Source of the DNA: Clavelina lepadiformis
Taxonomy: Eukaryota; Chordata; Ascidiacea; Aplousobranchia; Clavelinidae
DNA: 64,000 bases
NCBI RefSeq assembly: GCF_947623445.1
Contig: NC_135243.1
Location: forward strand, 3,536,501 to 3,600,500
Direction of reading: 5' to 3'
Shown: positions 100 to 63,899 of the stretch, one piece after another
How the letters are laid out: each line of letters opens with the position of its first letter
Position numbering within the stretch: position 1 is the stretch's first letter
The notes under the pieces: generated by a model
The model's database searches: none
Told to the model about the DNA's origin: nothing
The model's input: only the letters and a program-made list of their open reading frames with translations
Program-made: the position numbers and the translations under genes

Positions 100-1148
100 A
101 TGATTTGGTTTGATTTTTGCTATGACGTATTGAACAAGGGAGAAGATGTGATACAATGTGAGCACCAGGGAAGAGTTCCTGGAAGATGACGATGGAAGTG
201 GATTCTTTCCAAGACTCTCAGTGAGCAAAGTTTATATTTCTCTTCCATGTTATAGAAGTCCATGCCATGATGTAAAATGCTTCTGTGCCGACTTTGCACC
301 GTAGTTCTTGCCGTTTTGTTTCAAAATCAAAATGGCAATGACGTAGAGTAGAAGTAGAGTTAGAGTGTGCATGTGATGATGAGTGGGATGAGGATGAGGT
401 AGAGTGCTGCAGAAGCACGGACGAGGTTTTTTCTGCTCTCTCGTTTATTGCAGACCATGGAAAATGTTTGACCACTTTCTTATTCAGACACCTTTAAATA
501 GTTTTTTTGTTTAGTTTGTTTTTTGTTCTTTCATTTTTTGTTTAGTTTTGTTAAAACTTCTCTTAATCGGGTTTTAGAACTACACCTTCGTAAACGCGAT
601 GTGAACGAAACTTTTATCTTGTAATTTTCATTAATTTGTGTAATTTAATTTCGATGTTTTTAACCAGATGTACGAAGTTGACCAAATTATTAATTCCGAT
701 GGACCAACGCTGCAGTTTCGTGACGAAAAATATGATGTTATGCACTTGAAGGATGACGTAATCACTTTCATGAGCCAAAAGAGAGCGATTGCTTATGGAA
801 TAGTCGACAACTGTGTGATATACAACTACGCATATCGTAGCGCTTTGAGCGTTCATCAGCAGTTCATCTGTTTTTATGTGCTCAGTGATGTCATAGCTTT
901 CGTTTTTTTCTTGAGCCGATGTCTTGATCGTTTTTAACCATTTATTCTTTGACGGACTGGATAGCACTCCAGCTGTAGAGAAAGGACTTGCTGTCAAACT
1001 ATGTAGCAGAGCGGTGGAGTTTGGATTAAGAAATATCAAAAACAGAGAAATGTGCGCAGCTCAACCTCGATCGATTTTCTTGCAATCACAAATTTATTCA
1101 AAATTAGCCAAGTCCTGTCTTTACAGTAAAAATGAATATAATTTGTAA
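100..1148 (+). pseudogene. profilin-like array member 1, probably damaged
   Basis: This is a three-exon member of the small gene family that fills the rest of the window. Exon 1 (100-220) starts ATG-ATT-TGG and reads MIWFDFCYDVLNKG, the family's MxWxxFC opening. It is 121 nt long where intact copies have 129, and the reading frame slips near 155-160, so the frame leading to the donor (GTGAGC at 221) is not that of the ATG. Exon 2 (668-812, the usual 145 nt) is open and carries LQFRDEKYDV and RAIAYG, but its donor is GTGTGA rather than GTAAG. Exon 3 (916-1148) carries DVLIVF and LCSRAVEFGL. It then runs about 28 residues beyond the usual end, to TAA. It is either a recent pseudogene or a gene with a sequencing indel in exon 1. 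It is the only member on the far side of OPLAH. Confidence 0.55.
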
Positions 1149-1713
1149 TACATGTGGTTTTGACGTGATCCAGACATAATGCTGTCATTTTGATACCTTT
1201 CCGGGCATAGAAACCACCGCAAGTGTAGGTTTTATTTTATTCCGAATCGAAGAACAAACATGCTTTGATTTAGACGGAGATAACGCGATTGCTAACCTGT
1301 CAAGTTTAGCAACTTACTTTCCTTTCGCGTCATCACAAATTAGGTTTTTACAAATCAGATATTTTTATGTCGACGGATACGATAACATTGAACTTGATTT
1401 ACAATGAATAGATTCAAATCATCATCAACGTCATCGTCATCATCAACGTCAGCATTTGTTAATAACTTGACCTGACTTAAGACGATGATGTTTCAATGGA
1501 AACGATGTTGTTTATTGTTCTTTACGTGGATTTCTTATTTTTCCATGAAATTCTACATAGGCCTACATTTGTTCTTTGAATTGCTGAAAATACAAAGATA
1601 TAACTTATTTCTTTAAAGTGAGACCTTGTTAGGTTTTTACTTTCAAAGGGAACCTTGTCATAAATATCAAGGTGGAGTGACCTAAACTAAACCTACGTTT
1701 TCCTTTCATTCTA
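1149..1713. other. intergenic, no gene seen
   Basis: I see no coding exon on either strand. The stretch holds a CATCATCAACGTCATC-type low-complexity patch near 1420-1450 and otherwise plain AT-rich sequence. Confidence 0.5.
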
Positions 1714-1939
1714 CCGTATTTACTTGATTGTAAGCCGCATGTGATAGTGTTAAAAATTTAATGTAAGCCGCTCTTGAATGTAAGCCGCATATACCAAGTG
1801 TTTACACGCAAAGCTGAAAATGTTTAAAGGTTTATTTTAACTTTCACGCTCATTATTGTCATTGTCATCATCATCGATAATGTCACCGTTAAATAATGTC
1901 ATGTTAAAAAAGCCGCGGCTTACAATCAAGTAAATACGG
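1714..1939. mobile_element. MITE with 26-bp inverted ends and TA duplication
   Basis: The left end starts CCGTATTTACTTGATTGTAA and the right end is its reverse complement, both running into a GCCGC motif. TA flanks each side (1712-1713 and 1940-1941), as expected for Tc1/mariner-type target duplications. The GTAAGCCGC word recurs inside. At 226 bp with no reading frame it is a non-autonomous element. The superfamily call rests only on the TA. Confidence 0.75.
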
Positions 1940-1941
1940 TA

Positions 1942-3008
1942 ACTCTTTATATAAAGTAATTGTAATTTGTTGCCGATTCATTCAACCTTGTGTGTAGCTT
2001 GCGTTATATACTGTAGGGTGGAAGTGAATACAAGGTAATTTTCAAAATAAAGTGACAGAAGTGTTGCAAAGGTGCCAGATCATTTTCTAATCGTTGTTGA
2101 AAGTTTGTGAAGATCTGCCGCTTCTTTCTTGATACTTGCTCAAATTGTTGTACCTTCCAGATTCCAAATTTTAAAACAATTTACATAACATTGTAGCCTA
2201 GATGCGATATGCACCGCAGTTTATTTCCGATATTCTGTCATTTGTTTTTATTTTCGAATGATTGAGCTGAAAACATAGCTTAGTATAATTACAGACCTGG
2301 TTATCACGCCATTATTTATATTATAGTAAGCCATAGTTGAGAACAGTCCAAACAATAATTAAGTCACGTGATCGGTTGGTTGCTGTCATTTTAATTTTGT
2401 ATTAAACCGATCCAGACTTGCAACTGAAAAAGTTGACTAAAGCGCTGCAGGAACAGTTCAATAGCTGTCTAAACGTTTGTTCTATTCCAAAAGTAAATGT
2501 TGCCAAATCGAAATAGATGTTTTCTCATTCAATGAGGTATAAGCTTATAGCTTTAAATGGCGTCTGACAAAAAATAATCAGGCTATCTCTATTTCACCAA
2601 TATTGTTCAGTGTTACTAATGTATAGATGTTATATAAACGCCGTGTTATATAATATACTAGTATAGATACAATATATATTATAGATAATATAAAACAGTG
2701 TTTATATACTATAGTATATAGTATCTACGTATAAAGGAAACTTGCTCCCGTTCAGTTGACCTGATGAACAATTCTAACTCCAGCAAAATTTTATAAAAAA
2801 TCGAAACAAACAATACGTGACAATCAGAACTTGGGCTATCTCGGTAATTGAGGCATCAAGCGAAGAAAAATCATAGTCGGGTTTAAGTCGTGCAAAATAT
2901 TTTCGCAGTCCGAAGAGAAAAATTATCACACCAATCACTGACGTCAAAAAAATAAACAAATCGTTATGAATAATTAACAAACAACTCTGTTTTACTCAGT
3001 AGTCAACC
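1942..3008. other. intergenic, AT-rich with a palindromic patch
   Basis: No gene is recognised. Positions about 2620-2735 are almost pure A/T with several overlapping short palindromes such as TATACTATAGTATATA, a likely cruciform-prone or microsatellite-derived patch. Confidence 0.5.
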
Positions 3009-3016
3009 GTAATTAT

Positions 3017-3943: not shown

Positions 3944-3951
3944 TTAATTAT

Positions 3952-14300: not shown

Positions 14301-15899
14301 GACGTCACAACTGTATCAATCACTGACATTTCAAAAAGGTTTTCTGTTTAGGGGATCCACCTGGTCCAGGAGCTTATATCAAATTACGGGTTGGAAGTGG
14401 TCCAAGCTTACATGGCACACATCCAAAACCACGCCGAGGTCGCGGTCAGAAATCTGCTGCGCGACGTCTGCATGACAACGGACGGCGTACTCAGCGCGTC
14501 GGACAAGATGGACGACGGATCAGTGATCAACCTCCGGGTGGAGATCGACTCGAAGGAGGGCAGCGCGACGTTCGATTTCGAGGGGACATCCCCTATGGTG
14601 ATAAACAACTTGAACGCGCCGAGAGCGATCACCAAGTCTGCCATCATCTACTCCCTTAGGTGCTTGGTGGGCTACGACATCCCGCTTAACCAGGGCTGCC
14701 TCGCCCCTATCCACCTCCAAATACCCAAGTGGTCCATACTCGACCCCGATGATGACGCGGCCGTCGTCGGTGGCAACGTGCTTACGTCACAGAGGATCGT
14801 TGATGTCATTTTGAAAGCTTTTAAAGCGTGTGCGGCGTCGCAGGGTTGCATGAACAACACGACCTTTGGTGATGAGAGCTTTGGTTATTACGAAACAGTC
14901 GCCGGCGGAGCTGGAGCGGTAAGTTCTCCGTTATATGAATAACGTTTTGCGTGACTTAATGATGACGTGGCGATTTTGCAGGGACCAACCTGGCACGGTC
15001 GCAACGGGGTTCATAGTAACATGACCAATACAAGAATCACTGACCCGGAAATTTTAGAAAGAAGGTCAAGATATGATAAGGCTTAGATCATTATGACGTC
15101 ATAAAGTTGATTGTTTGGTAACAAGTTTGTTTATGGCAGATATCCGGTCGTCCTCAAGAGCTTCCGGCTTCTCCCGGGCACTGGCGGAGAAGGACGTTAT
15201 AGGGGCGGGGACGGAGTTTTGAGGGAGATTCTCTTTCGAAAAAACTTAACCCTGTCAGTGTTGAGTGAAAGGAGGGTTTTCCAACCCTATGGAGCTGAAG
15301 GTAAGGGGGGATTCCCCGTATACCCACTTATAACCAATTTTTGATGAAATATTTGATAATCTTGGAAGATGAAAAAGTGGCGATGTAGGAACTGGTGTTA
15401 CGCGGATGAGAGAGATATTACCAAAGTTCTGACCACTTTGCTTCATAAACCTTAAATATTACTCATCACCAGCGCACGACCTCTGGTGGTGAATCTGCTC
15501 AAATTTCACTAAACTTGACCTTTTTATAATGCAGGTGGTGGACCTGGAAGTTGCGGTGAGAATTTATTGTTACGTCATAAAGGACCTGTCGTTAACTTGG
15601 GAGGCAAAAATTTTGTCAACGTCAACCCAGGAGTAAGTCTTTCTATTACGTCACAAGGACAGAGATTAATTAGAGATAGTTGATTTTGTTTTGATGAAAA
15701 CGACGTTCTGTTTTTGATGAGATAACTTCTTCCTATTTCTACCATCCAGGACATCTTTCAACTCAAATCTCCTGGTGGCGGCGGGTATGGAGCTCCTTCT
15801 AGCGATGGTCAACTGTCGCTGTCTAAACGTCGCAAGGTGGCGACGTTCTCCGCCCGAGGGAGTGTTTTCGAGTTCGAGTCTCAGCAAGAAGCACATTGA
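5317..15899 (+). CDS. OPLAH: ATP-dependent 5-oxoprolinase, 25 exons
   Basis: This gene encodes the cytosolic enzyme that uses ATP to open 5-oxo-L-proline to L-glutamate in the gamma-glutamyl (glutathione) cycle. Exons: 5317-5392, 5575-5666, 5846-6031, 6349-6474, 6619-6725, 6955-7197, 7468-7571, 7869-7957, 8369-8541, 8896-8978, 9066-9306, 10906-10994, 11320-11542, 11978-12116, 12422-12581, 12719-12806, 13047-13113, 13422-13628, 13925-14099, 14177-14286, 14352-14918, 14982-15064, 15140-15300, 15535-15632, 15750-15899. The sum is 3837 nt, or 1278 residues plus TGA, close to the human enzyme. All junctions are GT-AG and in phase. Visible motifs are IDRGGTFTD (residues about 10-18), [25 protein letters not shown] and [14 protein letters not shown] of the hydantoinase A half. 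[19 protein letters not shown] (about 740), [16 protein letters not shown] and NLNAPRA mark the hydantoinase B half. The start was chosen by match to the family N-terminus. The exon 3 acceptor could lie 3 nt further on. Confidence 0.97.
9429..10254. mobile_element. hAT-like element in OPLAH intron 11 (outer element)
   Basis: The left end CAGGGATTCCCAACC (9429) and right end GGTTGGGAACCCCTG (to 10254) are inverted with one mismatch. Flanks TGACTAGT and (TG)ATCTAGT look like an imperfect 8-bp duplication. No transposase frame is seen. A second element lies inside it at 9642-9947. The insertion enlarges intron 11 to 1599 bp without touching an exon. Confidence 0.65.
9642..9947. mobile_element. 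hAT-like MITE nested in the outer element
   Basis: It starts CAGGGTTGCCA and ends TTGCAACCCTG. The flanks are GCTATAGA (9634-9641) and GCTGTAGA (9948-9955), an 8-bp target duplication with one mismatch. It has no coding capacity and must be younger than the element it interrupts. Confidence 0.75.
11641..11912 (+). repeat. duplicated segment around an A/T-rich simple repeat, OPLAH intron 13
   Basis: The segment containing ATGTTCACAAC and GTTTGATTAAAACTT occurs at about 11644-11703 and again at about 11857-11909. Between them is a TAAATAATAAATAAAAAT-type simple repeat (about 11740-11840). It is intronic and not predicted to alter the protein. Confidence 0.6.
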
Positions 15900-17705: not shown

Positions 17706-19582
17706 TCACTTTTGCATTTCGTAAATACTTCTTAACCCATAGCTTGCCGCTTGGTGACATTGAGTAATGACTAGCGCAAGTTTTTGTTGCACTAAAAACG
17801 TGAGAAAGTTGCACTTAATTTTAACAAAAGTTGCAGTAAAAAGTTGCATGAAAAATAGAAAAAAGTTGCCAAAAGTTGCAATATAAAATTCCTACAAACA
17901 GCTTAAAACATCATACTAGCCTACATAAGTTCTGAGTATTTAGGAAGCTTCCGGAAGCTGTAAAAAAAAGTTGCAAAAGTTGCAAAAACTTGCCCTAGTA
18001 ATGACCCTTGCCTCGACTTTCACTGCTGATTATGACCAAGATGCCTGGAAAGAATGCGAAGACAAACACTTTGCATTATTGACGAGTTTTAAACAATTAT
18101 CTACAGACTCTTCACTGACAGCGCAGTGATTGCTCTTGCTATAAATTTCATTTGATTGCGGTTTAGCAATGCATAGACGTCTTACAATCCCGAGTGTTCC
18201 CGTATGCAATAGACCTTAATGGTCCGTCATAACTGAAAACCCTGTCCTGGAATTTTTCAAGTCTGTATTCTTCGTTGCGAAGCAGGAAGTTGAAACCATT
18301 GGAGTTAGTGATTGTGGCTTTTTCGTATGTGTAGTTTAAAACAACGAAGTGAAATTAAAGAAATGAATGAAAACACAAATGTAAAATCCTCATCTATGGT
18401 GGGTCTACATAAATTATCTAAAATCTCTTGTTTCGTAATCAATGATCGTTGTTTCAATGTGATATGGGAATTGTGGTGTATTATTGATGGTAGCTTAGGG
18501 ATGGCCTAAGCCAAGCCAAGTCTTACAGTCTTTGTTCGACTCCGAAATGATTGTCTTTGACTCCGTTACGTTTACTGTCTCTATATTGCTTCTTAAATCA
18601 ACACCAACTTCATAAGTTCTAATTGTTATATTGTCCGAATAAGTTGTATCGAATTAGCAATATTTACACCACGCTTCCAATTCCCAATATCTTAGTTATT
18701 ACTTCAATTCACAGGAACTAACTCAGGAAGAAGTGAATGTCTAAAGAGGTTTCTCAGATACTTTTCAAGAGAGAGATTTAAACCAAACATTTCTTTTTAT
18801 ACTAAAGTATTGGCCAATCAGCTTTTGCCAATTAGCCCATAGTCACGTGTACAATTCCAATTTTAGCCTTTTTCTCACAAAGAATTCAAATCGATTTACC
18901 CCGTGTACAGAAAACCACTTGACACACTTAACTACGTCACAGGTCAATTGGAACTATTTTTTGACTACAATTTGCTAGAACAATGCATTAGCTACGTACA
19001 AACTATTATACAGTCAAATACAATGCTACTTGAAACACTTCAATCTACGTCAGCACGCTACAAAGCTTTGCAAACATTATTATCTGTACTGGAGAAAATA
19101 CAAAACTTATGCAATGCCAATTTATATAAATTATTGCAATTATGAAATTATCCGAACGCCACAGTGAGAAGCGTTTTAAGACAAATTTAAAAAAAAACAA
19201 AAATAAACAGCTATACAAAATGATAATCTGACATAATGACTAATAAATATGATGGCAACTACTCTACATTTGGTCTAAAATAAATGCATTCGCAGAACTT
19301 AAAATCGTCCACGATTCATCACAACCAAAGATCACTGACAAATGTTCAACAAACCACCATCCACCGCAACGAAGAATCGGCATTCCAGCAACTTAAACGT
19401 AAAGTAGAAAACTGCATTTGCTAATGTTTACTTTTACATAAAATTACTTACGGAAAGAAAACAAAAACACTGATAGTTGCCGCCGCATTTTCCTAAAAAT
19501 TGTTTAAGGTCCTCACATAGACATCATCAATCAATCTCCCGGCGCGGTATAAAACGTCATCGCAAAAACAGTTCTAATTCAT
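17706..19582 (-). pseudogene. profilin-like array member 2, pseudogene split by a MITE
   Basis: All three family exons can be traced on the minus strand, but each is damaged. Exon 1 (19452-19582) starts MN*NCFCDDV: the invariant Trp3 codon is TAG and a second stop follows near residue 30. Exon 2 (18186 to about 18327) still reads YEKATITNSNGFNFLLRNEEYRL in pattern (NSNG, LLRNEEYRL) and RSIAYG, but its acceptor CAG has become CAC. Exon 3 begins at 18044 (ILVIISSES) and is interrupted by a 226-bp hAT MITE at 17772-17997. Beyond it the tail QCHQAASYGL..IYEMQK-stop is preserved to 17706 in a shifted frame. The gene is dead, but its sequence is recent enough for each part to be read. Confidence 0.85.
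17772..17997. mobile_element. hAT-type MITE, short copy, inside the pseudogene exon
   Basis: The ends are TAGCGCAAGTTTTTG and CAAAAACTTGCCCTA, with a perfect 8-bp target duplication GTAATGAC (17764-17771 and 17998-18005). The sequence matches both outer parts of the 927-bp element at 3017-3943. It is an internally deleted, non-autonomous copy. Confidence 0.88.
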
Positions 19583-20791: not shown

Positions 20792-21658
20792 TCACATTTC
20801 ATATTCCTGGAGTTTTCTTACTCCTTCCCTTGCACCTAGCTCACAATTGTTAATGATTGTTTCTTTGTCTTGACTTTCACAGCTTATTACGACCACGAAG
20901 ACTGCAGAGAAAAACAACAAAGTTGCACACAATGATTTTGAAAGCTCTGATTAAGACATTTTTCAACTTTTAAAGCTATGATTCTGTGTTTTTCTATGCA
21001 AGTAAAAACTTACAGTGGGACATTTCCCCGTAAGCAATTGATCTTTCTGGACTCAGGTAAGTAAATATATCACCGTCATTTTTCACCAGAATGAAATCCT
21101 CGCTTTCAAATCGGAAGTTTGGATTCCACGAACTGGGTTCCATTCTTTTCTGTCGCATTTTATAAATCACGCTCATCGATAGATCCTGTTTAAAAACATC
21201 GAAGTAAATTTATACAAATTCGAGGAAAAAAACAACATTTTCCATATTAAATTGAGAAAAAGCTCGCGTTTAAATTGAGCTCACAAATTTTTAACGAAAA
21301 AAAAAAGAAATCAACAAAAAGCTTCTCGCGGTATCGATGTAAAAATATTTTTTGCAAATCTCAAAAACATTTGAAAACACGTGGAAATAATGGATATGCG
21401 AAATATTACACTGTTAACGCGTTTGTAAAAGTTGAATGCCCAAAGTTTCAAAAACCTACTATGACAAATAAGCTGAACTTTATCAATTTTTGTTAATGAA
21501 ACTCTAAATTTAGATAAATTGCTTACTGCAAGTCTTTCATAATTCAAACGGCATCTCCCACATTCCCCTCGTGCACGATCTCGGACCCGCACAGAAACAT
21601 ATTCCAATAGACGACCTGACCGACTCAAAATATCATCGCAAAATTCGTCCCAACTCAT
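20792..21658 (-). CDS. profilin-like array member 3 (137 aa)
   Basis: Three exons on the minus strand: 21658-21527, 21185-21014 and 20901-20792 (132, 172 and 110 nt), with in-phase GT-AG junctions and TGA stop. Exon 1 reads MSWDEFCDDILSRSGRLLEY, with the family Trp3. Exon 2 is 27 nt longer than the standard 145 nt. Its front is replaced by a basic, family-unlike stretch (YKMRQKRMEPSSWNP) before FRFESEDFILV and RSIAYG. Exon 3 reads FFVVVISCESQDKETIINNC ELGAREGVRKL. Its IINNC...REGVRKL tail is the closest in the window to the vertebrate profilin ending LINKKCYEMASHLRR as I remember it. Profilins bind actin monomers and proline-rich proteins. Whether this copy does is inference. A shared upstream block lies at 22015-22075. 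Confidence 0.75.
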
Positions 21659-26717: not shown

Positions 26718-27689
26718 TCATGTCTCCCGGTCTTTGATGGCGCCCAGTCCATGAGTTATTGCGTGTTTACAACAATTAAGAAGCCTTGATTTGTCAGCAC
26801 TTAATCGGGTAATTACGATCAAGATATCTGTCAACGATATGAAAAAGAAAAGCGTCCCATTAACACAGCGTTCTGTATATACCTGTTTAAATAAATCAAA
26901 CACATTCAGATGGCCACAATGGTCTATAAGTTACAACTTTATCTCGAACTGTCTTTAAAAAGGTTGCATTGATAACTTACACTCAGAGATCTTTCCGTAC
27001 GCAAGAACCCTTAATCCACAATCGTAGAAAAATATCCCATCGTGTAATTCCAGAAGTTGGTAATTATCGTCACGAAGCGTGAAGCGCGAACCGTTGGAAT
27101 TACAAATGATCCATACCTCTGATTCCTGGCATTTGAAGGAACAGTTTTTTAAACAAAGAATACAGAAACGAATATAAACTTATATATAACGAATATAACT
27201 TATAGTACGAATATAACTTGTCTACTCGATTGCAAAAGTTAAACAAGGTCTATAGTCGCTATAGATCGGACAGAAAGACGTTTTATCAAAAAGTACAGAA
27301 AGACGAAAACAAAATCGATATTCTGATTATAAATAAAATAGATAAAGCAAAAAATTTCGCTTATCTGGTTTCAATCCTGATGCCTTTTAAAACAAAGACA
27401 TATTGTTTTGAAAGTGAGAAACAAAACACATCAAAGGCAAAGACAAAGAAGCGGAACCGACCAACAATCAACATCGTCGCAAAATTGGCATTACAAAAAT
27501 TTACGTAAATTTTTAACAGAATCTGCGCAGTTGAAAATAGATTCCTACAAAATTACTTACTGAAAGTTGTGGGAACTTTCCGCGTCTGTCGTGTTCTCCC
27601 AGCATTTTTTGTGCCTTTTCCACATAGACGTACTCCGTCGAAAGAGCGCCCTTTTTAATAACTTCATGGCAGAAGTGATACCAATACAT
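26718..27689 (-). CDS. profilin-like array member 4 (127 aa)
   Basis: Minus-strand exons 27689-27561, 27125-26981 and 26827-26718 (129, 145 and 110 nt) give an uninterrupted 127-residue protein ending in TGA. Exon 1 reads MYWYHFCHEVIKKGALSTEY and then VYVEKAQKMLGEHDRRGKF. Exon 2 carries NSNGSRFTLRDDNYQLL and LAYGK. Exon 3 begins ILIVITRLSADK and ends CCKHAITHGLGAIKD. The exon 2 donor is GTAAGTTATC, lacking the extended intronic motif seen in most copies. A shared upstream block lies at 28033-28101. The profilin assignment is inferred from family layout and pattern. Confidence 0.75.
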
Positions 27690-29300: not shown

Positions 29301-30060
29301 TCAACATCTCATGTCGATCAGACGACTTTTTCCGTAACTTGCCGCTCGATGACACTGCTTGACGACCATTCCTCTTGCAGGACTTCGACAGCTAATTACG
29401 ATTATGATACCTACGTAAAATTTGGAAAAAAACGTGGCATAATTGACAGCATTTAAACAAATAAACTTTACTCACAATGCCATAGTGGCTTCTATTACTT
29501 TCACATGCTACATTCTAAAAAAGTATTTAACCATGCATAGATCTCTTACATGTGAAAGATTTTGCAAAAGCAATAGCCCTAGTCGGACCTTGGTAAGTCA
29601 CAACGCCATTGTTTCTCTGCGCAAGACTGTATTGGTGGCCACGAAATCCAAAATTTAAAGAATTGGCATTGTGAATGATGTTGAACTCGCCCACCTGGTT
29701 GAAAATGATTTTGAAATGAAGTCAAACAAATGAATGTAAAAGCAGAGTTAAATTTATTTCATGTTGAACTTGCTTAGCTCGTCCAAGATTCATGCAAACT
29801 CTGTGCAATGTGTTTGAAATTAGTAGCAACCAGTAACTATTACCTGAATTGCAAATTCGGCAAAATGACAGCTTTCGTATGTCGTTGAACATAAAGAATT
29901 GATAAAAAAACTCTTTTTAAAAATTACTTACTGTGAGTTCAGGAAATTCCGGATTGTTTTTGTTTTCCCCCAACTTTCCCATCATTGTTCCCAAATAAAC
30001 ATATTCGACCGAGCGGCCAGGACGACGTAACACATCGTTGCAAAATTGGTTCCAATTCAT
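29301..30060 (-). CDS. profilin-like array member 5 (127 aa)
   Basis: Minus-strand exons 30060-29932, 29694-29550 and 29410-29301 (129, 145 and 110 nt) encode 127 residues with TGA stop. Exon 1 reads MNWNQFCNDVLRRPGRSVEY then VYLGTMMGKLGE, very close to family consensus. Exon 2 carries NSLNFGFRGHQYSL and RAIAFAKS. Exon 3 has IIIVISCRSPARG and QCHRAASYGKSRL. The exon 2 donor region reads GTAAGAGATCTATGCATG, a variant of the conserved intronic motif. Introns are 237 and 139 bp. A shared upstream block lies at 30361-30426. Confidence 0.75.
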
Positions 30061-32084: not shown

Positions 32085-32943
32085 TCAAACCCTCATGTTG
32101 CACAGGTGGCTCAGTCCGTATCGTAAGGCGTGTTGGCACTGGTTAAGGAATCTTCCTTTGGGACGATTTTCAAAGCTAAAAACGATCAAGATACCTTCAC
32201 AAAATATGAAAAAGCTGCATTAATACTAATATTTTACCGTTACCAGCAACACTATGGTACTTCTATGACTTCTATTCAATCTGCATTTTCCACAATGTAA
32301 CGTTTACCAATGCATAGACATCTTACATTTGAAGGTATGTCCATAAGCAAGTTCCCTTGAAGGACCATCGTAATCGTACACACCATTCTTATACTGCACA
32401 AAACTGTATTCGTCGCCTCGAAACTGAAAGTCTACGCCATTTGAATTACTGATGGCGTACGCTTCGGATTCCTGGTGGAATCATGTCGAAGTTCGATTAA
32501 ACAATTGAATGAAAATACAGAGATTAAGCTTCATCCACTCATGCTAAGTGCCGAGGTTCAACCGACCAGCAGAGAATATTATATAAAGTATATAATTATA
32601 TATATTATATACCGGTCATGTAGATCGCAAAGTCGGCATTATAACAATTTACGTAAACGTTGACTTGAAGATACAAAACTAAAAACAAATTTCAAAACAT
32701 TATTCACGGTAAGTTCTGCAAACCCCGGATGGTTTCCGTCTTGTCCCACTCTCTCCATTATCGTGCCCATGTAAGCATATTCGACGGTGTACCCCGGTTG
32801 GTTGATGATTCTGTTGCAAAATTGGTCCCATGTCTTATCAGGTTTCTGCAACAAACACTTTAGATTTGAATATTTTAAAGTAAACTTTACTTTTTTATGA
32901 AAAATTACGAAACAAAACTTACAGGTACGTAATTGTCATCCAT
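32085..32943 (-). CDS. profilin-like array member 6 with an extra 5' coding exon (137 aa)
   Basis: Four minus-strand exons: 32943-32923 (MDDNYVP), 32845-32708, 32471-32327 and 32194-32085 (21, 138, 145 and 110 nt), all in phase, giving 137 residues and TGA. The usual start codon before Trp3 is ACA here (KTWDQFCNRI). A small upstream exon with a good donor (GTAAGTTTTG) and acceptor (TTTGTTGCAG) supplies a new ATG. The protein therefore gains about 10 residues at its N-terminus. Later motifs are VEYAYMGT, NSNGVDFQFRGDEYSF, RELAYG, ILIVFSFENRPKG and QCQHALRYGLSHL. The conserved GTAAGATGTCTATGCATTG follows exon 2. Confidence 0.72.
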
Positions 32944-45341: not shown

Positions 45342-45417
45342 CAACAACACAATATACTTTACAAACTGCCTGGTTGGCAAAACGCAAGTTACACACAAAA
45401 GTTTTTACAGCCTAAAT

Positions 45418-45835: not shown

Positions 45836-47246
45836 ATGAATTGGTACCACTTTTGCAATGACGTTTCAAAACACGCCGGTCCTTTTATTGAATATGTCTA
45901 TCTGGGCTCAGAAAGAAACTTTTGGGGTGAAAAAGACAAATACAAGAATTTCCGAAGATTTACAGTATGTACAAACGTCTATGTAATATAGATTTTTATC
46001 TAATGTTTCGGTTTAAGTTCGATGGCAACGAGTCATTGTTAAGTTAGTCTTGCAAACGTTTTTATTTTAACTCAATTAATTTAGATGAATGCTTAGACAT
46101 GACATAAATTATATAATCTTATTCAAACGTAATATCCCTCTTACTATCGCCTTTTTTAGTTCTACTCACGATATTTCAAGCCAAATTCGGAAGTTTGGTG
46201 TTGACTGACTTAAACTCAAAGCTGATCAAACTTAATCTTTTAGTTTATTTATTTGTTTTATTTTAATCATAATATTTTTCATCAACATGTAATTTGAAGT
46301 AGAAATAATACAGCCAAGACATTACCGTTAGTCACTCGTGACGTGTTAAAATCGTTTTTTCATCTCTGAACACGTTCCAACGCGTATAACGATTAATGGT
46401 GACGTCACAGTCCTTTTCTTCTTAAGAACAGGACCTTGTACACCGTATTGCGCTATCTGGTCAGCATTGAATATGTTGACAGACACAAACGATACTCAAC
46501 TACGGTTGCATATATTTTTTTGGGATCAGTATCGGAGTGGAAAGTTCCACAATTAGACAACACGTTTCGAAACCCGCTGGAGCTGCAGTTGTACCTACGT
46601 CCTCTTCGTAAACATTTCCACGTTCGGGCATTACGGTAAAAAGAAACAAATAAAAATATCGGTATCTATCGGAACTTGCACAAAGACGAGCTCGGTAATC
46701 GATTCGGATAAGAGTAATGGTAATTGTGTTCGAGCAATGAAGAATCTTCGCCGAGTTGACGTCATGCGAAGGCTTTCGCCACCTGTATTTTGCTGTATTG
46801 TTTCTGTCTGTTAATTTTACTTCGATGTATGTTTTGACCAGAACCATGAAGTGTCGGTCATCGTTAACTCATATGCTTCAAACTTCATACTTCGTGGCGA
46901 AGAATTCGGATTTTTGAAGACCGAGGGCGACATATTCGTTTATGAAAGCTCCACAAGATCGCTTGCTTGTGGGAAATTTAACGGAGGTAAGATGTCTATG
47001 CATGGTAAATCCGCAACTTCCTATACAAGAAATTCAAAATGAAACCATCGCAGCATTTATATAAAGTTTAGACTAAATATTCTCACTATGAGTCATGGCC
47101 GCAACTACAGTATTTTGTATTTTTATTTTTGGGTAGGTTGCTTGATCGTAATCAGTTGCATGTTTTCCGGAAGACCAATGGCAGCGGAGCATTGCAAAAG
47201 ATCGGTAGAATACGGGCTACGATGTCTGAATACAAGCACAAGCTGA
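45836..47246 (+). CDS. profilin-like array member 7 (127 aa)
   Basis: Plus-strand exons 45836-45964, 46842-46986 and 47137-47246 (129, 145 and 110 nt) give 127 residues and TGA. Exon 1 reads MNWYHFCNDVSKHAGPFIEY, then VYLGSERNFWGEKDK. It keeps a Trp where profilins have their second poly-proline-binding Trp (VWAA). Exon 2 carries NHEVSVIVNSYASNFILRGE and RSLACGK. The donor is GTAAGATGTCTATGCATG. Exon 3 has CLIVISCMFSGRP and HCKRSVEYGLRCL. Intron 1 is 877 bp and intron 2 is 150 bp. The gene stands opposite in orientation to the minus-strand genes on either side. Confidence 0.77.
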
Positions 47247-48638: not shown

Positions 48639-49437
48639 TCAGCAATTTTCTATGGCCTTGATATACTCTAATCCGCAAATCACCGATTTCTGGCAAGCAT
48701 TTCTCACCCTACTGACTTGGTAGTAGCAACATGCCGAGACGATGATGACAACTGCACGATAAAACCAACGATCACAGCGTCACAATGGCTTCTATTGCAT
48801 CATTTCAAACCAAAGCAAGCGAAGGCAGAGTTAACAAGGCATAGACATCTTACACTGCGAGTGTTTTCCACAGACGATTGTTCTGGTAATGCTCTCATAT
48901 GTGTGGATGTTATTTTCTCTCTCAACCAGTCTGTAATTTTCACCACGTATTTGGAAGCTTGAACAGTTTGAATTCGCAATAATAAAAGCTTCATATTTCT
49001 GTTGAAAAATATCCAAACAAAGTGAATGAAAACAAACCCAAGTAAAATAAACAAACGCTAACTAACCGGTGATTATTAGACGACTGAGTCGACATTATGA
49101 TGGTTAAAATAACTGATAAGCATGTCATGAAAGGTATGCAATTCCGAATTAAAATTTACATTAAACCGCCTAATGCATACGGTAACTTTATGGTGACCGC
49201 TAGTACAAGACAATCAGTTTTGGGCTAAATAACTGAAAAAGCACGATCTACGGTACGGTCGGTGGACGATGGTCTGAATTCAAGTTCACGTCACATTAAC
49301 CTACTTACTGTAAATGTTTGGAAGCCCCCACGCCTATCATGGTCCGCCATCATCCCCTCGTCAGTGCCGAGGTAGGCGTATTCGGTCAAACAACCACCTT
49401 TCAGTAAAGAGATTCTGCAAATATCGTTCCAATCCAT
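48639..49437 (-). CDS. profilin-like array member 8 (128 aa)
   Basis: Minus-strand exons 49437-49309, 48999-48855 and 48751-48639 (129, 145 and 113 nt) encode 128 residues ending in TGA. Exon 1 reads MDWNDICRISLLKGGCLTEY, then AYLGTDEGMMADHDRR. Exon 2 has KYEAFIIANSNCSSFQIRGE and RTIVCGKHS, with donor GTAAGATGTCTATGCC. Exon 3 has VIIVSACCYYQVS and ACQKSVICGLEYIK, with YG replaced by CG in the C-terminal helix. An upstream block lies at 49759-49829. Confidence 0.75.
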
Positions 49438-51232: not shown

Positions 51233-52223
51233 TCACACTTTCATGAGCTCGATGCTACTGAGCCCATAATCGACTGCTTTTAAGCAATGGTTCTTGACTC
51301 TGGATGGATTAGCTCCAGATCCACATACGATGAGGACGTCTGACCGGGATGAACGAAACAATTTCCATTTTAATGCAATTTGTAAATGCTTTAAACGAAT
51401 TAACTTATTGCTACGAACATTATCTCAGCGCTACTTCAGACAAGATTGTGCCGTAGTTTAGCAATGCATAGACATCTTACATCTGGAGGTCCTTCCGCAA
51501 GCCATTGACATTTTCGTACCTTCGTAACAGAATATGCCATCATTCTTTCCCACGAATCTGTATTCATCGTCACGAAGCCGGAAGTTCGAACCATCTGCTT
51601 CGATGATGAGAGCCACTTCAGCATCCTGGTAGAAAAATAAAGAGTTGAACAATAACAGTTTCATCGTTTACTCTCCGCATAAAGTAAACAAGAGTCTATA
51701 ACTATAAGTTATAAGAAATATTCTGACAAACCTAAACAAGACGCAAAATAATAAACTTATTCTGTTGAATTAAAATTTCTTTTCATGGTTGCATATATAT
51801 AGACATAGACATCTTACATATATGAAAACCTTTCCCTTATTGTAAGCAAAGCGCTTGCAGGATATTAAACCCAGCGATGCTTCCTCATCGCACAAGATCT
51901 GTGCCAGATCATGACGAGATCAAAGCCCAAACCTTAACTATAACTGGTGATCACATAACAGAGCGACTACTGCCACCACTGCATGACGTCATCACTTTCT
52001 AATTCAATTTAACGGTATCGTAGTGGAATAATTATATTGGAATAATTGTATCGGCAACATTGCATAGAAATTTACATTAACATGGTTTTCTTACTGAAAG
52101 TGTTGTAAAATCTCCCCGCCTGTCTGCTTCTGCCAACTTTTCTTCCAATCTACCCAGGTAGGCGTAATGGGTTGTTCGACCTCCGTTCCTTAAGATTTCA
52201 CTGCAAAGAATGTTCCAGTTCAT
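51233..52223 (-). CDS. profilin-like array member 9 (126 aa)
   Basis: Minus-strand exons 52223-52095, 51625-51481 and 51339-51233 (129, 145 and 107 nt) encode 126 residues with TGA stop. Exon 1 reads MNWNILCSEILRNGGRTTHY, then AYLGRLEEKLAEADRRGDF. Exon 2 has DAEVALIIEADGSNFRLRDD and SMACGRTS, followed by GTAAGATGTCTATGCATTGC. Exon 3 reads VLIVCGSGANPSRVKNHC then LKAVDYGLSSIELMKV, with one residue fewer than the 110-nt type. That is shared with members 11 and 12 and suggests a subgroup. A relic exon 2 lies in intron 1 (51818-51860). Confidence 0.78.
51818..51860 (-). pseudogene. possible relic of a family exon 2 in intron 1 of member 9
   Basis: The minus strand shows AAGCGCTTTGCTTACAATAA then a short gap and CATATATGTAAGATGTCTAT. 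That resembles an exon 2 end (TCGCTTGCTTATGGAAAG) with the conserved donor and intronic motif. No open frame remains. A partial duplicate of the neighbouring exon is the simplest reading. Confidence 0.4.
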
Positions 52224-54239: not shown

Positions 54240-55066
54240 TCACGTTTCCAATTCCATGATAACCTGTAGTCCGTAATGTACAGCTGAATAACAAGGGAGG
54301 CTGACCAGAAAGGTTTGAGAATGTGCACAGCTACATACGATCAAGACATCTGTTCACAGAGAAGAAAAAAAGGAATAATTAGAATAATGCATTTGAATTT
54401 ATGATGGCTTCATGTACATAGCTTCATCTTAGGTGAAGCATTTCGGTCAGCATTCAGAATACGAACTATATGGTCTCTTCTTCAGACTGGTGAAAAAATG
54501 CTCCACCATGCTTGACGGCCTATTTCTGTTCCAAATCACTCGAGCGTTACCATTTTCTCTTTCGGGTTCTGAATGGTGAGTAAAATGCTCTACGTTTACC
54601 ACCCTCCTACTTTCCCTACTTTCAAAAAGCTGTGGTTCAGCAATGCATAGACATCTTACAATAGGGGCCCATTCCGAAGGCGATTGCCCTTGTCGGACTC
54701 TCATAAGTTACTATGTCACGCTCCGTCTTCAAGAATTTGTATTCTTCGCCACGTAAATAGAAGTTTGAAGTGTTTGAGTTAACGATCGTGGAAACTTCGA
54801 AATTCTGGTTAAAAAAATATCCAAGTGATATCAAAGCATGAACGGAAAAGGACAAATTTTGCAGAGGCAATATCGCTACCAGTGAGTCTAGAACATTGAG
54901 AGACAAATGAATTGGACTCAGTACACAAATTACTTACTGTAAGTCTGGAGAACTTCCAACCTCTGTCTATTTCTCCCCACGTATCTTCTACTGTACCCAC
55001 AAAGGCATACTCCATACAAGGACCTCCAAAATGTAAAACGTCACCACAAAATTTGTACCAATCCAT
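54240..55066 (-). CDS. profilin-like array member 10 (127 aa)
   Basis: Minus-strand exons 55066-54938, 54804-54660 and 54349-54240 (129, 145 and 110 nt) give 127 residues and TGA. Exon 1 reads MDWYKFCGDVLHFGGPCMEY, then AFVGTVEDTWGEIDRGWKF, the best match in the window to the profilin segment VGYKDSPSVWAAVPGKTF as I remember it. Exon 2 has NFEVSTIVNSNTSNFYLRGE and RAIAFGMG, then GTAAGATGTCTATGCATTGC. Exon 3 has VLIVCSCAHSQTFLVSLPC and SAVHYGLQVIMELET. Intron 1 is only 133 bp. Confidence 0.78.
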
Positions 55067-55483: not shown

Positions 55484-56849
55484 CTTAAAAGCAACCCTCA
55501 TTCAAAAAAAGCTGAAAACAAATTATATTGGAATGCGGATAAAACATCCGCGGCCAATGACGAATGCTTGCTATCGCTTCAGGCATCTGAAGGTGTAAGC
55601 AGGACAACGAATTAAAGCCCTGATTGCGGAACCTCACATGAGGACTCTCACAAACTTTTTAACGCGACCGAAACATGTTGGGAATCATGGCGCCTATAAG
55701 AAGAAAAAAACTATTTTATAAGCAAACTTTTTCACAAATCGATTTAAAAATAATAAAAAATTAAATAATAACAAAAAATAAATGATCAATAAGATCGTAA
55801 ATTGCTTCTTCATATCTGAACATTTGAGTTAGATATAAAAAATTTACCTGACGGTGGTTGTGCCGTAACATTTCCTCGTCCAGTAAATTACTATGGTTTT
55901 AAAATGAAACTAAATTATTTAAACATTTATAGTATTTTGAGGCTAATAATTAGGTCGGAAGCATTTCCAACCGGCTATTTACGATTGGTGATCTTATAAC
56001 TAAAAAGTTACTTCATTATAGTTTTTAAGTAATTAAAACAGTCAAGTAATGTTGCTACAAAATAGTAAACGATGTTACATTATAGTATGTTTATATATAA
56101 TAGTATAGTTTATTTTTGTAGCACGTTGAAATAACTAGGATAATTTTCACATTGGCGTTTTAGTCAATGAAGTGCTTAGAAGAAAAGGGTTGAGGAAAAA
56201 TAATGGTTGGCAATAAACCTATTCACCGACGTAGCACCACAACCCCACATCAGGATATTGCGCAATGTTACCCATGAAAGCTGCACTTACATGCTGGTAA
56301 ATGTCCGAAGCAAAGTTACAGATTTATTAGAACTGATAAATGTTAGACACTAATTCGGAGAAAAGAAATCTTATAACCTGAAAACGCCGTGAAAAAGTCA
56401 ATTACCAACGTAAGTTACCAGACCAGTAAGTTACCAGTAAGTTACCAGTAAGTTACCAATGTAAGTTACCAACATAAGTTACCAGATCAGTAAGTTACCT
56501 GTAAGTTACCAACGTAAGTTACCAACGTAAGTTACCAACGTAAGTTACCCACGTAAGTTACCAGAATATGAGAAAGGCGGGTGAGAGGAGATTTAAGAAA
56601 TCAAAATGAAGTAAATCTACTGTGTCAAGAATATTACGCATGACTCTACGTTGTGTTGGACATTCTGTTTCTCTCAGTTGTTGGTGAATGAGCTGCAACG
56701 ATACAGTTTATGACCACGAGGAAATAACAACTTTTAGTTCGTGTCAAACCACATCGTGTATTTCCAGAAAATAATAAAATATATTTTATTTATCGATGAC
56801 AAAGTATAAATTAATTACAATACAATATACACTGATGCAGTGAGAGAGT
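55484..56849. other. intergenic between members 10 and 11
   Basis: No coding exon is recognised. A minisatellite occupies 56402-56563. Confidence 0.4.
56402..56563 (+). repeat. GTAAGTTACCA minisatellite
   Basis: About twelve tandem units of 11-18 bp, each containing GTAAGTTACC (one CATAAGTTACC), with AACx, AG or AGATCA spacers. Each unit includes a consensus 5' splice site word, GTAAGT, on the strand opposite to the neighbouring genes. Confidence 0.9.
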
Positions 56850-58632
56850 TCACTCCATCATTTGCTCAATGCTTGATAAACCGTAGTCCACCGCTTTTTG
56901 ACACTGATCTTTGACTTTTGATGAATTTGAACTTGAGCCACATACGATCAAGACATCTGTTCAGGAAGGAAAACAACAAAAAGTTGCATTTAACTTTATT
57001 TGTGGCTGCATTAAGCAAATAAAGTTTTCTTCCAATACAATGATACGGCCAATGTATCCATGTAAACTTACTTCTGAAAAGTTGTGATTTAGCAAGTAAG
57101 AAACAACTTACACCTGGAGGTTCTCCCAAAAGCTAGCCACTTTGTCGAACTTTCATAACAGAATATCGCATCCTTGGCCTCCGAAAATCTGTATTCCTCA
57201 TCGCGAAACTGGAAGTTTGAGCCATTCGAATTAGTGATGGTCGATACTTCGAAATTCTTTCAACAAAAACATAATGAAACATTTGAGTAAAAGCGATAAA
57301 ATATTAATAGTCGGCCACATAAATTAAACAAACCTTTATACGTTTTTATGCAATTAGAGTTAAGAAACTTTCTACCAAACCTAAACCTAAACAGAAATTA
57401 ATTTGATAATTCGTTTCTGAAATAATCGTTAACTTATGATAGATACGTTTCAATATCTTCGGTTGGAATCGAAGCATTTTCTGGAGTAGTAACTAGGCGA
57501 AGAACGGCATTACTCAAGCTCGGTGCCAAATAAAACTTTAATTTAATTCAACTTTATCTAGCAAACCTTTTACTGGATTCTGTCTTGTTTTTTTAAAGTT
57601 TGACTTTGGTGACCGTAAGATATTTTAAGACATTAAGACTTTCAAAGACTAATTGCTAATTTTCTGTTGTAGTGGCACAAGTTCCAATTTTGAGAATCTG
57701 TTTTGAGAAATTCAAAAGACACCAAAACACCTTAAAAACACGGCTGCCCATCACTATGTCCCAGATTTTCCGTTACAACAATTTACTTAAATGTACAAAT
57801 CGAACAATATTGAACGGAATTCTGCATTTATATAATACCTGATACTCAGATTCCAAATAGGACGCAGATAACGACAATGGCGGTAATATACATAGGCGGT
57901 TAACAGTGGTTCCATTGAACAACATATAATTCAATAAGATAATATAAATAGGATAGATAGCTTAGAAATTATCTGGTTTTACTTGTAGATTAATCCGGGT
58001 TGATCAGGTTTAACAACGTGTGTGTAAATGTTATCTTTAATTGGTTAGTTCCCTGTTTAATAAATTGTGTGTTTCTACTTTGTGGTTTATTTTTGGACAT
58101 TTTTTTATTGGACTCTACTGCATAATCACAAATGTGATAGATGTAGCCCTAGCCCCTAAACAGACCGTAATTTGCGAAGAGGGTTTAATCACCATAAACC
58201 CCTTATCATTTCTTTCTTTATTTGCGCTGTGTGGATGTAAAACAATGCCTGTTGCTGCTAAATGTGGTCATCTGCGATGACAAATTCGCATCCTAAAATC
58301 AATCAAAAATAAATTATGCACTTTTTAATGGAAACACTGTTTACCGTCAATCTCCTTTATAGCTATTTTCTAACGCACCAATTCCTTTTTGCTCAAAGTT
58401 TTACGGAATTAATAATTTAACACATCGGCAAAAAAACATTACAAACAGATTCATAAATTTAATGCGCAAAATCGAACTAAACGTTTTTGCACATATTACT
58501 CACTGACAGTGTTGCCGATTTCCCACCTTTGTCTTTCTCTCCCAACATACCTTCAGTTGTGCCGAGATAGACATAACTGGTCGTGCAACCGCCGTTCCTT
58601 AAAACATCGGTACAGAAAATGTTCCAATTCAT
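56850..58632 (-). CDS. profilin-like array member 11 (126 aa)
   Basis: Minus-strand exons 58632-58504, 57256-57112 and 56956-56850 (129, 145 and 107 nt) encode 126 residues with TGA. Exon 1 reads MNWNIFCTDVLRNGGCTTSY, then VYLGTTEGMLGEKDKG. Exon 2 has NFEVSTITNSNGSNFQFRDE and KWLAFGRTS. Its donor is GTAAGTTGTTT, without the extended intronic motif. Exon 3 has VLIVCGSSSNSSKVKDQC and QKAVDYGLSSIEQMME, close to member 9. Intron 1 is the longest of the array at 1247 bp. Confidence 0.77.
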
Positions 58633-58964
58633 TTCAAGGATCAATAAAGACGTCCTTGTGTGCTTTATATTTGTACAAACTATATTTTCTTATAAACAAA
58701 CTAAAAATATAACACTAATCTCTAAACTTAAAACAACAACTTGTAAGTCGCTTGTCAAAAATGTCTACAATTTTACTCCCTGCATATCTATCTACATATA
58801 TATAATATACAATAAATATACATTGCTCTGGAAAAACCTGAAGAAGGTGCCCGGAGCTTGAAGTAACAGAAGCAAAAACATATAACTCGCCAAACAAACG
58901 CAAAAGTTTTCCAGAACAACCACCTTAACATGCTCCTTATACCAGTTGTACTGATGATGAAATG

Positions 58965-59032
58965 CAGCACTGAGCACGACACAAGCGAAGAAACAAACGT
59001 TTCAGGCAATTGCCCGTTGCACGTTAACTTCA
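58965..59032 (-). promoter_or_regulatory. shared array upstream block, member 11 copy
   Basis: Gene orientation: AAGTTAACGTGCAACGGGCA, CAATTGCCTGAAACGTTTG, GTGCTCAGTGCTGC. It lies about 330 bp before the ATG. A GCATTTTATTTG stretch just upstream could be a TATA-like box. Confidence 0.55.
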
Positions 59033-60651: not shown

Positions 60652-61626
60652 TTACAACTTCATGGCTTTAAGATGTGTCAGCCCATATCTCACCGACTTC
60701 AGACATTGCCTTCTCACTTTGACTTTAGGACAACCAAAGCCGAAAATGATCAAGACATCTGCCCGGAAGAAAAAAAAAAATAAAAACAGTTAATTAATAA
60801 AAGCATCTAAAGAAATTTCTCGCACACCATTACGACAGCATGAATACAAGATTTTAAACCAAATTTAAAAAATTTCTGGTTATGTAAGACATAAACATCT
60901 TACATTTTGAGTTCTTCCCGCAAACAATGCACCTCGTTTCACCTTCATAAGCTAGAATGTCATCCTGGTCGAACACAAATTTGTAATCTTCGCCACGAAA
61001 CTGTAAGTTCGAACCCTTTGAATCACTAATGCTGGAAACTTCGAAAGTCTGGCAGAAGAATATCAAAGTTAAATTCAAGACATAACATAAACTAACAGAT
61101 AAAATTTCTATCCAGGTCACATTTACATAGAGTTTTAAGGAGTACAAGCTCATTATGGTAAAGATATGAATCCTCTATTACCTCCACAACACTATTGTAA
61201 ATATAAAGTACAACTAAAATGCTTGTCTGCTTATGCCGTTGCTACAAAACCGACGTATATGGGGTCTATCTTCCTTCAATTTGAAGTAGAAGTCATTGCA
61301 GGACTTTTAATAAACCACGATACACCATCCTACAAACTTCTTGCCATACGCGGCAATAAGAATATCTACTATCATTAAAGAATTATTTGAGAACAAGCAA
61401 TAAACTACTGTATATGGGCGGATTGATCCGGTACAAACCGGCTTTTAAAAGCATTAAATCAGGTTGAATTTTGAACCTTTCCTATTCAATGACTAACTGA
61501 AAGCGTTTGAAACGTTCCACGTTTATCCGACTCTCCCCATATCTTCTCAACTGTACCGAGGTAGCAATATTCGGTAGAACGACCTCCGTGGCATGCAACA
61601 TCGTCGCAAAAATTGTTCCAATCCAT
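60652..61626 (-). CDS. profilin-like array member 12 (126 aa)
   Basis: Minus-strand exons 61626-61498, 61048-60904 and 60758-60652 (129, 145 and 107 nt) encode 126 residues, with TAA as stop. Exon 1 reads MDWNNFCDDVACHGGRSTEY, then CYLGTVEKIWGESDKRGTF, with the second Trp kept. Its donor is GTTAGT. Exon 2 has TFEVSSISDSKGSNLQFRGE and RCIVCGKNS, then GTAAGATGTTTATG. Exon 3 has VLIIFGFGCPKVKVRRQC and LKSVRYGLTHLKAMKL. It is divergently arranged with member 13, about 1.24 kb between start codons. Confidence 0.78.
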
Positions 61627-61773
61627 TTTCGGCATGCACCGCGTAGCGTTTCCTTATGTTTATGCAGAGTAGATCAAAGTTATTAAAAACGCTTAAAAAA
61701 GAGAAGTTTCCTGCAAAAATGCATACATTACTTTTTGTCGTGTCTCTGTAAATTGGAAACTAAGAGCTTTAAA

Positions 61774-61856
61774 CAAAAGACGCTGATTTATGGGCTTGGT
61801 ACGGTAAAGGAATATGGACTCGGCCCAATAGTGACAAGCGTCGATTACTTGAAACG
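61774..61856 (-). promoter_or_regulatory. shared array upstream block, member 12 copy (diverged)
   Basis: Gene orientation: GTAATCGACGCTTGTCAC at the distal end and ATCAGCGTCTTTTG at the proximal end, about 150 bp before the ATG. The middle part is not conserved. Confidence 0.35.
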
Positions 61857-62454
61857 AAACACTTTAAAGAAACGAAACTGAAAACCTGAGCAGAAATCAA
61901 TAAATTATTTACTGTAATTAGCAGCTAACCCTATGCTTTGTAAACAAAAATGTAATTTCATGACACTTGTTACTTAAGTTTTTGTAGGATTTAAATTTAG
62001 CGATGAACTCAAGCTTCAGAAATCTTAAATTTAGCAATCTTCTCTTGTGTCCCAGCATAGACATGCGAGGGGAGGCAATTAACCCTCGTAATTAATGTTT
62101 TCACAAAAACTAAACCAATACAAATCAGAAACGATTTGTTTTCTTCCATTTTTTACCGAAGTACCCTTCTATACGTATTTAAATTACATTTTGTCTTAAT
62201 CAAAACGAAATAAAAAAATGAAAATTTCTAAACAAAAGTAACCAATTGTCTCGAAAATGTTAACAATACTTCCTACTTCTTCTCTTCTGACAACTTTCTT
62301 TACTTCCTGCATGTCTTTATACTTTCATGAAATAACCAAGCGGCCTCAACTTCATTTTACTAAAAAATCAAAACGTATTTCCTGAATATATACCACAGAG
62401 TACGAGAGTCACAATAATAACTTGACTACAAGTTTTACTGTAGCCACACTACAC

Positions 62455-62526
62455 GAAAAACGATGAGCATGGCAGAGAAAAGCAAATATTTCTGCAGGCA
62501 GTCACAGGTTACGTGCTTCGTTGTAC
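62455..62526 (-). promoter_or_regulatory. extra copy of the upstream block in the divergent intergenic region
   Basis: On the minus strand it contains GTGACTGCCTGCAG, TTTGCTTTTCTCTGCCATGC and TCATCGTTTTTCGTG. This is a good match to the other blocks but about 830 bp from the start of member 12 and pointing away from member 13. It may be an older promoter, or belong to a lost minus-strand copy. Confidence 0.45.
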
Positions 62527-62864
62527 TCCTGAAACCAGACACATACAGTGAACGAGGCGGTACAGTGCTTGCTGGGCAGCATGTTTAGTTTTCAGTGGGT
62601 TGCTTAGAAGTTGTAGTATTCCAGATTATATAGGCAGCATGTTTAACACCTATTTTTTGTAATCATATTTTTGTGGCCGCTAAACGTATCTTCTTCAATT
62701 AAGCAATGTTTAGCACTTTAACACCTCATGCAGTGGCACAAATGTTTAAGCATTTTTGAGAAGAAACTTTTCAATTGTGTTTGAAAGGTCTGCTTTTCTT
62801 TTCAATTCTAGATAATAAATTTTTAGTTCGAATCGATGTAAAGATTTCTTTTTAGCACGTTGAA

Positions 62865-63899
62865 ATGGATTGGGACAAATTTTGTCGTCGAGTTTTGAAA
62901 CATGGAGGTCCAGTGATCGGATACGTCTATCTCGGCACAGACGAAAGAATGCTGGCGGAGAAAAATAGACGTTGGAGTCACCTGAAACTCTCAGTAAGTT
63001 GTTTTTTAAATGTTACTGGATGTGTTTTGGATTGAATGCTTTATTCATGTGAAGTCTTGTAGAACTCGCAATCGTCCACTTCAAGTCTTTTATAAGCTTT
63101 AGGCTGCCACTATTTCACAGGAAAAAATCATACAATCGACTTTATTTTGCATATTTCTTTTTTAATTAAGTTAAATGTTATATATCATAGCAACTCTACC
63201 CTAACTTAAATAGTCTAAATGTAACTGCAATAATACCCGAATAACTTTATGCATTCCCATTCTACAAACATAACCGCCGATCTAAACAGGCTACTTTCCG
63301 TAAAATAGTCACCCATCTACGTTTAGTTTGGCCCGAACCTCCGAACCTAGAAGGCCAAATAGATTATACAGTATGTTATATTATATTTTTTGTGTGTTCA
63401 ATAATAATACATTTCATAGTCGATTTCAGAAATAGTTTTGTTTTCAGAAGCCTTTACAAACTTTAAAACCTGGTTTTTATTCATTTACCCAAGTCCAATC
63501 AGACGTTTATTTTCAACCAGGTTTTCGAAGTGTCCACGATCAGTGGCTTGAATGGCTCAAACTTACAGCTCCGCGATGAGGAATACAAACTTGTGGAGAG
63601 TAGAGACAGCGTAGTCACTTACGAGAGTCCAACAAAATCTCTTGCTTATGGAAAAACCTCCAAATGTAAGATGTCTATGTTTGGCAAAACTGCAAATATC
63701 CCCGATTTAATTTGAAATGAAGTGATAGAAGGATCTAGTCAGTGTGAAAATAAGTCAATAACGCAACTTGTGTTTTTCGTCTTAATCAGATATGTTGGTC
63801 GTATGTAGCGATGCTGACCCGAACAAGGAAATGCTGAATATTCAGTGTCAAAAAGCGGTAAAATACGGACTAGAACGTCTCAACGCCATGGAAGTTTGA
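62865..63899 (+). CDS. profilin-like array member 13 (127 aa)
   Basis: Plus-strand exons 62865-62993, 63521-63665 and 63790-63899 (129, 145 and 110 nt) give 127 residues and TGA. A good acceptor (TTTCTTTTTAG) ends 11 bp before the ATG, so a 5' leader intron or trans-spliced leader is possible. Exon 1 reads MDWDKFCRRVLKHGGPVIGY, then VYLGTDERMLAEKNRRW. Exon 2 has VFEVSTISGLNGSNLQLRDE and KSLAYGKTS, with donor GTAAGATGTCTATG. Exon 3 has MLVVCSDADPNKEMLNIQC and QKAVKYGLERLNAMEV. The order and spacing match profilins: N-terminal helix with Trp3, a V-x-G strand, a VLVI-like strand, then the QC-led C-terminal helix. The second profilin Trp is Leu here. Confidence 0.8.

Follow-up and report, generated by a model that had tools for sequence, protein, structure and literature searches.

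Chromosome 4 of the ascidian Clavelina lepadiformis carries at least 42 divergent profilin-like copies in tandem, 13 of them in the stretch of 64,000 nucleotides analysed here (C4:3,536,501-3,600,500; hereafter the window). Profilin is an ancient actin regulator, of which animals usually possess few copies. According to the explanation that we consider reasonably likely, the copies are profilin paralogues in a birth-and-death array, which would encode adaptors of the profilin fold, weakened in actin binding and diversified in their partners. Common descent of the copies, their arrangement as an array, some recent duplications and the past splicing of a relative of one copy, c08, all follow from comparison of the sequences.

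The extent of the array was determined with profiles of the individual exons, which recovered all 13 loci of the initial annotation as three-exon sets in order within the window. Every exon matched at an expect value (E) <=1e-9 and unrelated matches appeared only at E >=0.06, the training loci being those of the same window. The span originally assigned to these loci was accurate, with c01 beginning at position 100 and c13 finishing at 63,899, and the protein motifs quoted for them are found in most copies. The proposed array of about a dozen genes was correct as to the array, but not as to its size: the exon profiles find 42 exon-2 places across C4:3,536.6-3,817.8 kb, distributed over two blocks about 140 kb apart. 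Block A comprises 17 copies (3,536.6-3,611 kb) and block B 25 copies (3,751.9-3,817.8 kb), and the interval between them yields only matches at E >=0.06. The number of 42 is a lower bound, for which the window and C4:3,600,001-3,818,000 were read. In a genome scan with the database protein P0001, 59 of the 61 matches at E <=1 fell on C4 between 3,537 and 3,816 kb, the others on C6 and C7, and the matches listed in three protein scans of the genome include none on C4 upstream of the window or past 3,818 kb. A candidate member at C7:8,897,038 was rejected, as it scored -0.1 bits with a hidden Markov model (HMM) of the array.

A full gene model was obtained for 35 of the 42 copies, and one copy, c32, consists of a partial exon 2 only, adjoining c33. 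Within the window, 11 of the 13 loci (c03-c13) each allow one or more open models, of which those selected encode 125-128 residues, and GT/AG borders can be read from the DNA at equivalent places in the intact loci. Four of the 35 models are devoid of a methionine at the usual start and the first junction of the c39 model is unusual. Exon 1 measures 129 nt in 23 models, exon 2 measures 145 nt in 29, and the intron phases are 0,1 in 34, with tyrosine as the split-codon residue in 15; model choice favoured these modal lengths and phases. When length is given no weight, the donor site with the best consensus lies, for exon 1, at 129 alone in 20 of 39 cases and is tied there in 5 more; for exon 2, it lies at the expected position in 37 of 42, 13 of these being tied. 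A search of the protein database with the array alignment returned eight proteins, all from Clavelina lepadiformis; this search depends on shared exact words, and an origin restricted to Clavelina is thus not demonstrated. Four of the eight are identical to spliced models (P0001 to c11, P0003 to c13, P0004 to c05 and P0008 to c35, the last located outside the window). Among the other four, one contains the model (P0005, which begins further upstream of c06, a copy without an ATG at the usual position), one differs by a single residue (P0002, c09), one is allele-like (P0006, c07) and one has an alternative start of exon 2 (P0007, c03). The copies look like real genes. A shared upstream motif was sought and rejected, since the best 8-mer occurred in 10 of 28 upstream stretches and background maxima also reach 10.

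The predicted splice positions are, moreover, supported independently of annotation by a degenerate intronless copy on chromosome 6 (C6:19,437,221 onwards), which is 68% identical to the spliced coding sequence of c08 over 384 columns and spans both predicted c08 junctions without interruption. In the surrounding region (L028, C6:19,436,500-19,438,500) it occupies approximately positions 672-1090, upstream similarity to the c08 gene begins at 672, and an A-rich stretch lies downstream. Among the 35 models, c08 is its nearest relative. The lack of introns implies that the transcript of a c08 relative was once spliced and then copied back into the genome of the germ line, which speaks for past, not present, expression.

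The assignment of the array to the profilin family, proposed in the initial annotation, is supported by the predicted fold and by an exon architecture common to an ordinary profilin of the same genome. AlphaFold2 models of P0001 (c11) and P0008 (c35) both retrieve profilins as their best matches in the PDB, and the central sheet with N- and C-terminal helices, the fold looked for, was thus found in two predicted models out of 35. Among viral structures, the best match was a poxvirus profilin (E 1.7e-3), which is uninformative on origin. At the sequence level, the array HMM scores two profilin genes on chromosome 3, here termed C3b and C3a, at 27.7 and 20.5 bits, compared with 8.2 bits for the best of 2000 shuffles, and hhalign returns 96.4%. 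Arabidopsis profilin obtains 4.2 bits with the array HMM, which is not above the shuffles; hence, the sequence link between array and profilin runs through tunicate profilins.

The standard profilin profile PF00235 recognizes the array only faintly. It matches 5 of the 11 window models (best E 0.002) and 6 of 35 in total, and 3 of the 8 database proteins at no more than 17.1 bits, under the gathering cut-off of 25; for the models inside and outside the window, scores under 25 bits were inferred from the E-values. The significant PF00235 hit anticipated earlier was therefore not obtained. Two results weigh against the family assignment or are neutral towards it: only 1 of the 24 models outside the window matches PF00235 (E 0.074), and Roadblock-type proteins follow directly after the profilins in the structural search, from Foldseek rank 26 for P0001. 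Because of the latter, the fold evidence is strong, not final, and families unnamed in the structure lists are not thereby excluded. Roadblock/longin-type proteins (Ragulator, MglB) rank structurally below profilins, and these families are not among the matches listed in the Pfam and PDB sequence searches, no other link having been sought. Outside the window, DUF3573 (E 0.0056) and C12orf66_like (E 0.011) outscored profilin in one member each and were rejected as chance, as were three ephrin entries (E 0.42-0.76) returned by a PDB sequence search with the alignment of 11 proteins.

When the whole genome was scanned with PF00235, no array exon was among the matches listed; only a profilin-4-like gene exceeded the cut-off, and an exon of C3a fell below it at E 0.04. 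The complete C3a and C3b models pass with 43.3 and 51.4 bits; the scan did not list C3b and placed C3a under the cut-off probably because exons were scored apart. A protein search with the C3a model returned nothing at E <=10, C3a itself included, and cannot show absence in other species. The two genes lie about 7 kb apart (C3:23,239,315 onwards and C3:23,246,512 onwards).

C3a and C3b share with the array a three-exon structure with phases 0 and 1, an MSW start, Cys7 and the cysteine of the last helix. Intron positions and phases are common to the array and C3a, whose exon 1 and exon 2 have the modal lengths of 129 and 145 nt and whose phase 1 intron splits a tyrosine codon; the corresponding exons of C3b measure 132 and 148 nt. 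Unlike most array copies, these two profilins score above the Pfam cut-off and have retained Trp31, the equivalent of human Lys69 and a basic pair. The profilin-4-like gene (C9:1,482,375-1,484,124), which we take to be of PFN4 type and which is present in one copy among the genome-scan matches listed, belongs to the profilin family by Pfam, exon by exon, and resembles the array in being itself divergent. Its exons of 117 and 135 nt with phases 0,0 differ from the modal 129 and 145 nt with phases 0,1, and it was rejected as the source of the array architecture. The array probably descends from a profilin with three exons, a type that chromosome 3 still retains.

In the protein tree, a single branch (96/97) sets the 35 array proteins apart from C3a, C3b and Arabidopsis profilin. 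Within the array, the two blocks separate for the most part but not completely, 20 of the 35 inner branches are open and the end branches are long; identity to c11 is 23-60% among the remaining ten models of the window. Recent events are represented by c29/c30, a tandem pair, and c38/c39, an inverted pair. At C4:3,803-3,815 kb (L024, L025), c36/c38 and c39/c40 have the appearance of an inverted duplication with its centre near 3,809.5 kb. Ratios of nonsynonymous to synonymous substitution (dN/dS) amount to 0.10-0.56 in seven close pairs formed by six genes (dS 0.03-0.54), older pairs having been excluded as near saturation; as judged from coding sequence, purifying selection acts on the recent pairs. 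It is likely in the preferred explanation that birth and death of copies shaped the array. If the array were instead mostly decaying after a burst of duplication, under weak constraint and with few copies in use, the seven copies without a model, the four models lacking a start methionine and the long end branches would find a ready explanation. Yet splice sites and open frames are kept in 35 of 42 copies despite strong divergence, the last-helix cysteine is present in 35 of 35 models and Tyr20 in 34 of 35, and dN/dS stays below 1 in the close pairs, which makes general decay highly improbable.

Regarding function, the initial annotation had considered either an expansion of actin regulators or a repurposed scaffold; the former has become less likely, as the residue equivalent to Lys69 is mostly acidic. 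Human profilin-1 (PDB 4x1l, 1awi, 1pfl), which shows 9-11% identity in the alignments with these three entries, was added to the alignment, and contact lists were mapped onto it. Lys69, which we take to be an actin contact, corresponds to lysine in human, Arabidopsis, C3a and C3b, but in the array to Glu (19 models), Asp (3; acidic in 22 of 35), Gln (3) or Lys (3), and Arg74 and Arg88 are likewise mostly lost. The basic pair, KK or RK in C3a, C3b and two plant profilins, is absent from all 35 models. At the poly-proline site, whose rings are presumably Trp3, Tyr6, Trp31 and a C-terminal aromatic residue or histidine, Trp3 is kept in 26 of 35, Phe or Tyr at position 6 in 27 and Trp31 in 12, with all four positions kept in 6; c22 and c38 are copies that retain the ring residues. 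Mean entropy amounts to 2.52 bits at 12 actin contacts (of 19 listed, the other 7 lying in gapped columns and being dropped), 2.14 at 6 poly-proline positions and 2.17 over 122 columns, a contrast that is small.

These substitutions bear on the alternative that the copies are ordinary working profilins still delivering actin monomers, multiplied for dosage or tissue, with their divergence due to fast tunicate evolution. The profilin fold of the predicted models and purifying selection on recent pairs would suit this explanation, and profilins elsewhere bind actin despite low identity. Moreover, two observations tell against weakened actin binding: the column aligned with human Lys90 holds Arg or Lys in 30 of 35 models, and Arabidopsis profilin itself departs from human at several of the listed actin contacts. 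The actin argument therefore carries moderate weight. Against ordinary profilins stand the rarity of the Lys69-equivalent lysine, the loss of the basic pair and the fact that the genome already has C3a, C3b and the profilin-4-like gene; the contact list is, however, scorable at only 12 of 19 positions. On balance, we regard ordinary actin delivery as unlikely. In the adaptor explanation, the proteins would be small soluble profilin-fold modules that still have the profilin scaffold and some of the poly-proline face but an altered charge on the side facing actin; given this change of charge, actin binding is probably weak or absent in most copies. Adaptor roles, for partners that are proline-rich or of other kinds, would be more likely, with different copies serving different cell types or partners, in the manner of vertebrate profilins 3 and 4, which are divergent and of germ-cell type.

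A more far-reaching form of this explanation, which we hold to be doubtful, envisages a profilin fold freed from actin, yielding about forty diversified adaptors in a fast-turnover, possibly hypervariable array that would serve the germline, immunity or self/non-self discrimination. To assign the copies to germline or immunity is a guess, backed only by the retrocopy and one divergent allele pair. In this pair, c07 and P0006 differ at 9 residues, all between residues 10 and 28 of exon 1, with zero differences elsewhere. P0006 is probably a second allele of c07, and the segment might reflect gene conversion or hypervariability, although the comparison comprises one sequence pair from different contigs. 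Alternatively, the fold could have been recruited as a fast-turnover repertoire for immunity, allorecognition or gamete function, in which variation itself is useful. The 42 copies with their recent tandem and inverted duplicates, the confined c07 differences and the germline transcription implied by the retrocopy are in line with such a repertoire, but dN/dS <1 in the close pairs and the single c07 comparison are not, and we consider it quite improbable.

Plant profilin copies are close to one another. The array differs from plant families, such as those of maize and Arabidopsis, in forming one cluster whose window members have diverged to the degree given above; the maize profilin family resembles it in comprising several paralogues in one genome (PMC11546416). 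The literature searched, at the level of titles and abstract starts, describes no array of profilins, whether in tunicates or in other animals, and the word "profilin" does not occur in the main text of the genome paper (PMC10884593). What was not found there is the array as such; individual members already bear the family name, because UniRef labels 5 of the 8 array proteins 'Profilin'. At least 42 divergent copies beside ordinary profilins kept elsewhere constitute a natural experiment that bears on which of the fold's surfaces can be released from constraint, and a concrete case for the cellular use of profilins that may not bind actin. Since nearly all copies lie far under the standard profile cut-off, similar arrays elsewhere could escape notice.

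Positions of the profilin-like loci and the neighbouring gene within the window (exons in order of transcription).
Feature	Position	Strand	Exons and remarks
c01, broken profilin-like copy	100..1052 (end approximate)	+	exon profiles, no open model; exon 1 from 100, frame break; exon 2 from 665; exon 3 ~915-1052
OPLAH (5-oxoprolinase) exons, between c01 and c02	14391..15344	+	neighbour, outside family
c02, degenerate profilin-like copy	17706..19573 (approximate)	-	exon profiles, no open model; exon 1 broken; exon 2 from 18333; exon 3 broken, ~17706-18045
c03, profilin-like gene	20792..21658	-	21527-21658, 21014-21149, 20792-20901
c04, profilin-like gene	26718..27689	-	27561-27689, 26981-27125, 26718-26827
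c05, profilin-like gene	29301..30060	-	29932-30060, 29550-29694, 29301-29410
c06, profilin-like gene	32085..32839	-	32708-32839, 32327-32471, 32085-32194
c07, profilin-like gene	45836..47246	+	45836-45964, 46842-46986, 47137-47246
c08, profilin-like gene	48639..49437	-	49309-49437, 48854-48998, 48639-48751
c09, profilin-like gene	51233..52223	-	52095-52223, 51481-51625, 51233-51339
c10, profilin-like gene	54240..55066	-	54938-55066, 54660-54804, 54240-54349
c11, profilin-like gene (= P0001, LOC143453100)	56850..58632	-	58504-58632, 57112-57256, 56850-56956
c12, profilin-like gene	60652..61626	-	61498-61626, 60904-61048, 60652-60758
c13, profilin-like gene	62865..63899	+	62865-62993, 63521-63665, 63790-63899

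The neighbour named in the initial annotation, OPLAH, was confirmed by Pfam matches of its exons to Hydantoinase_B (E 2.1e-58 at 14,391-14,942 and 3.6e-17). A phage similarity search with the first 8 kb of the window gave no match. On the + strand, three long open frames follow one another at 24,359-26,082, the first with a weak zf-AD match (16.6 bits, under the cut-off) and the other two with none. Immediately downstream of c11, a tandem repeat with a 13-base unit occupies 56,402-56,564.

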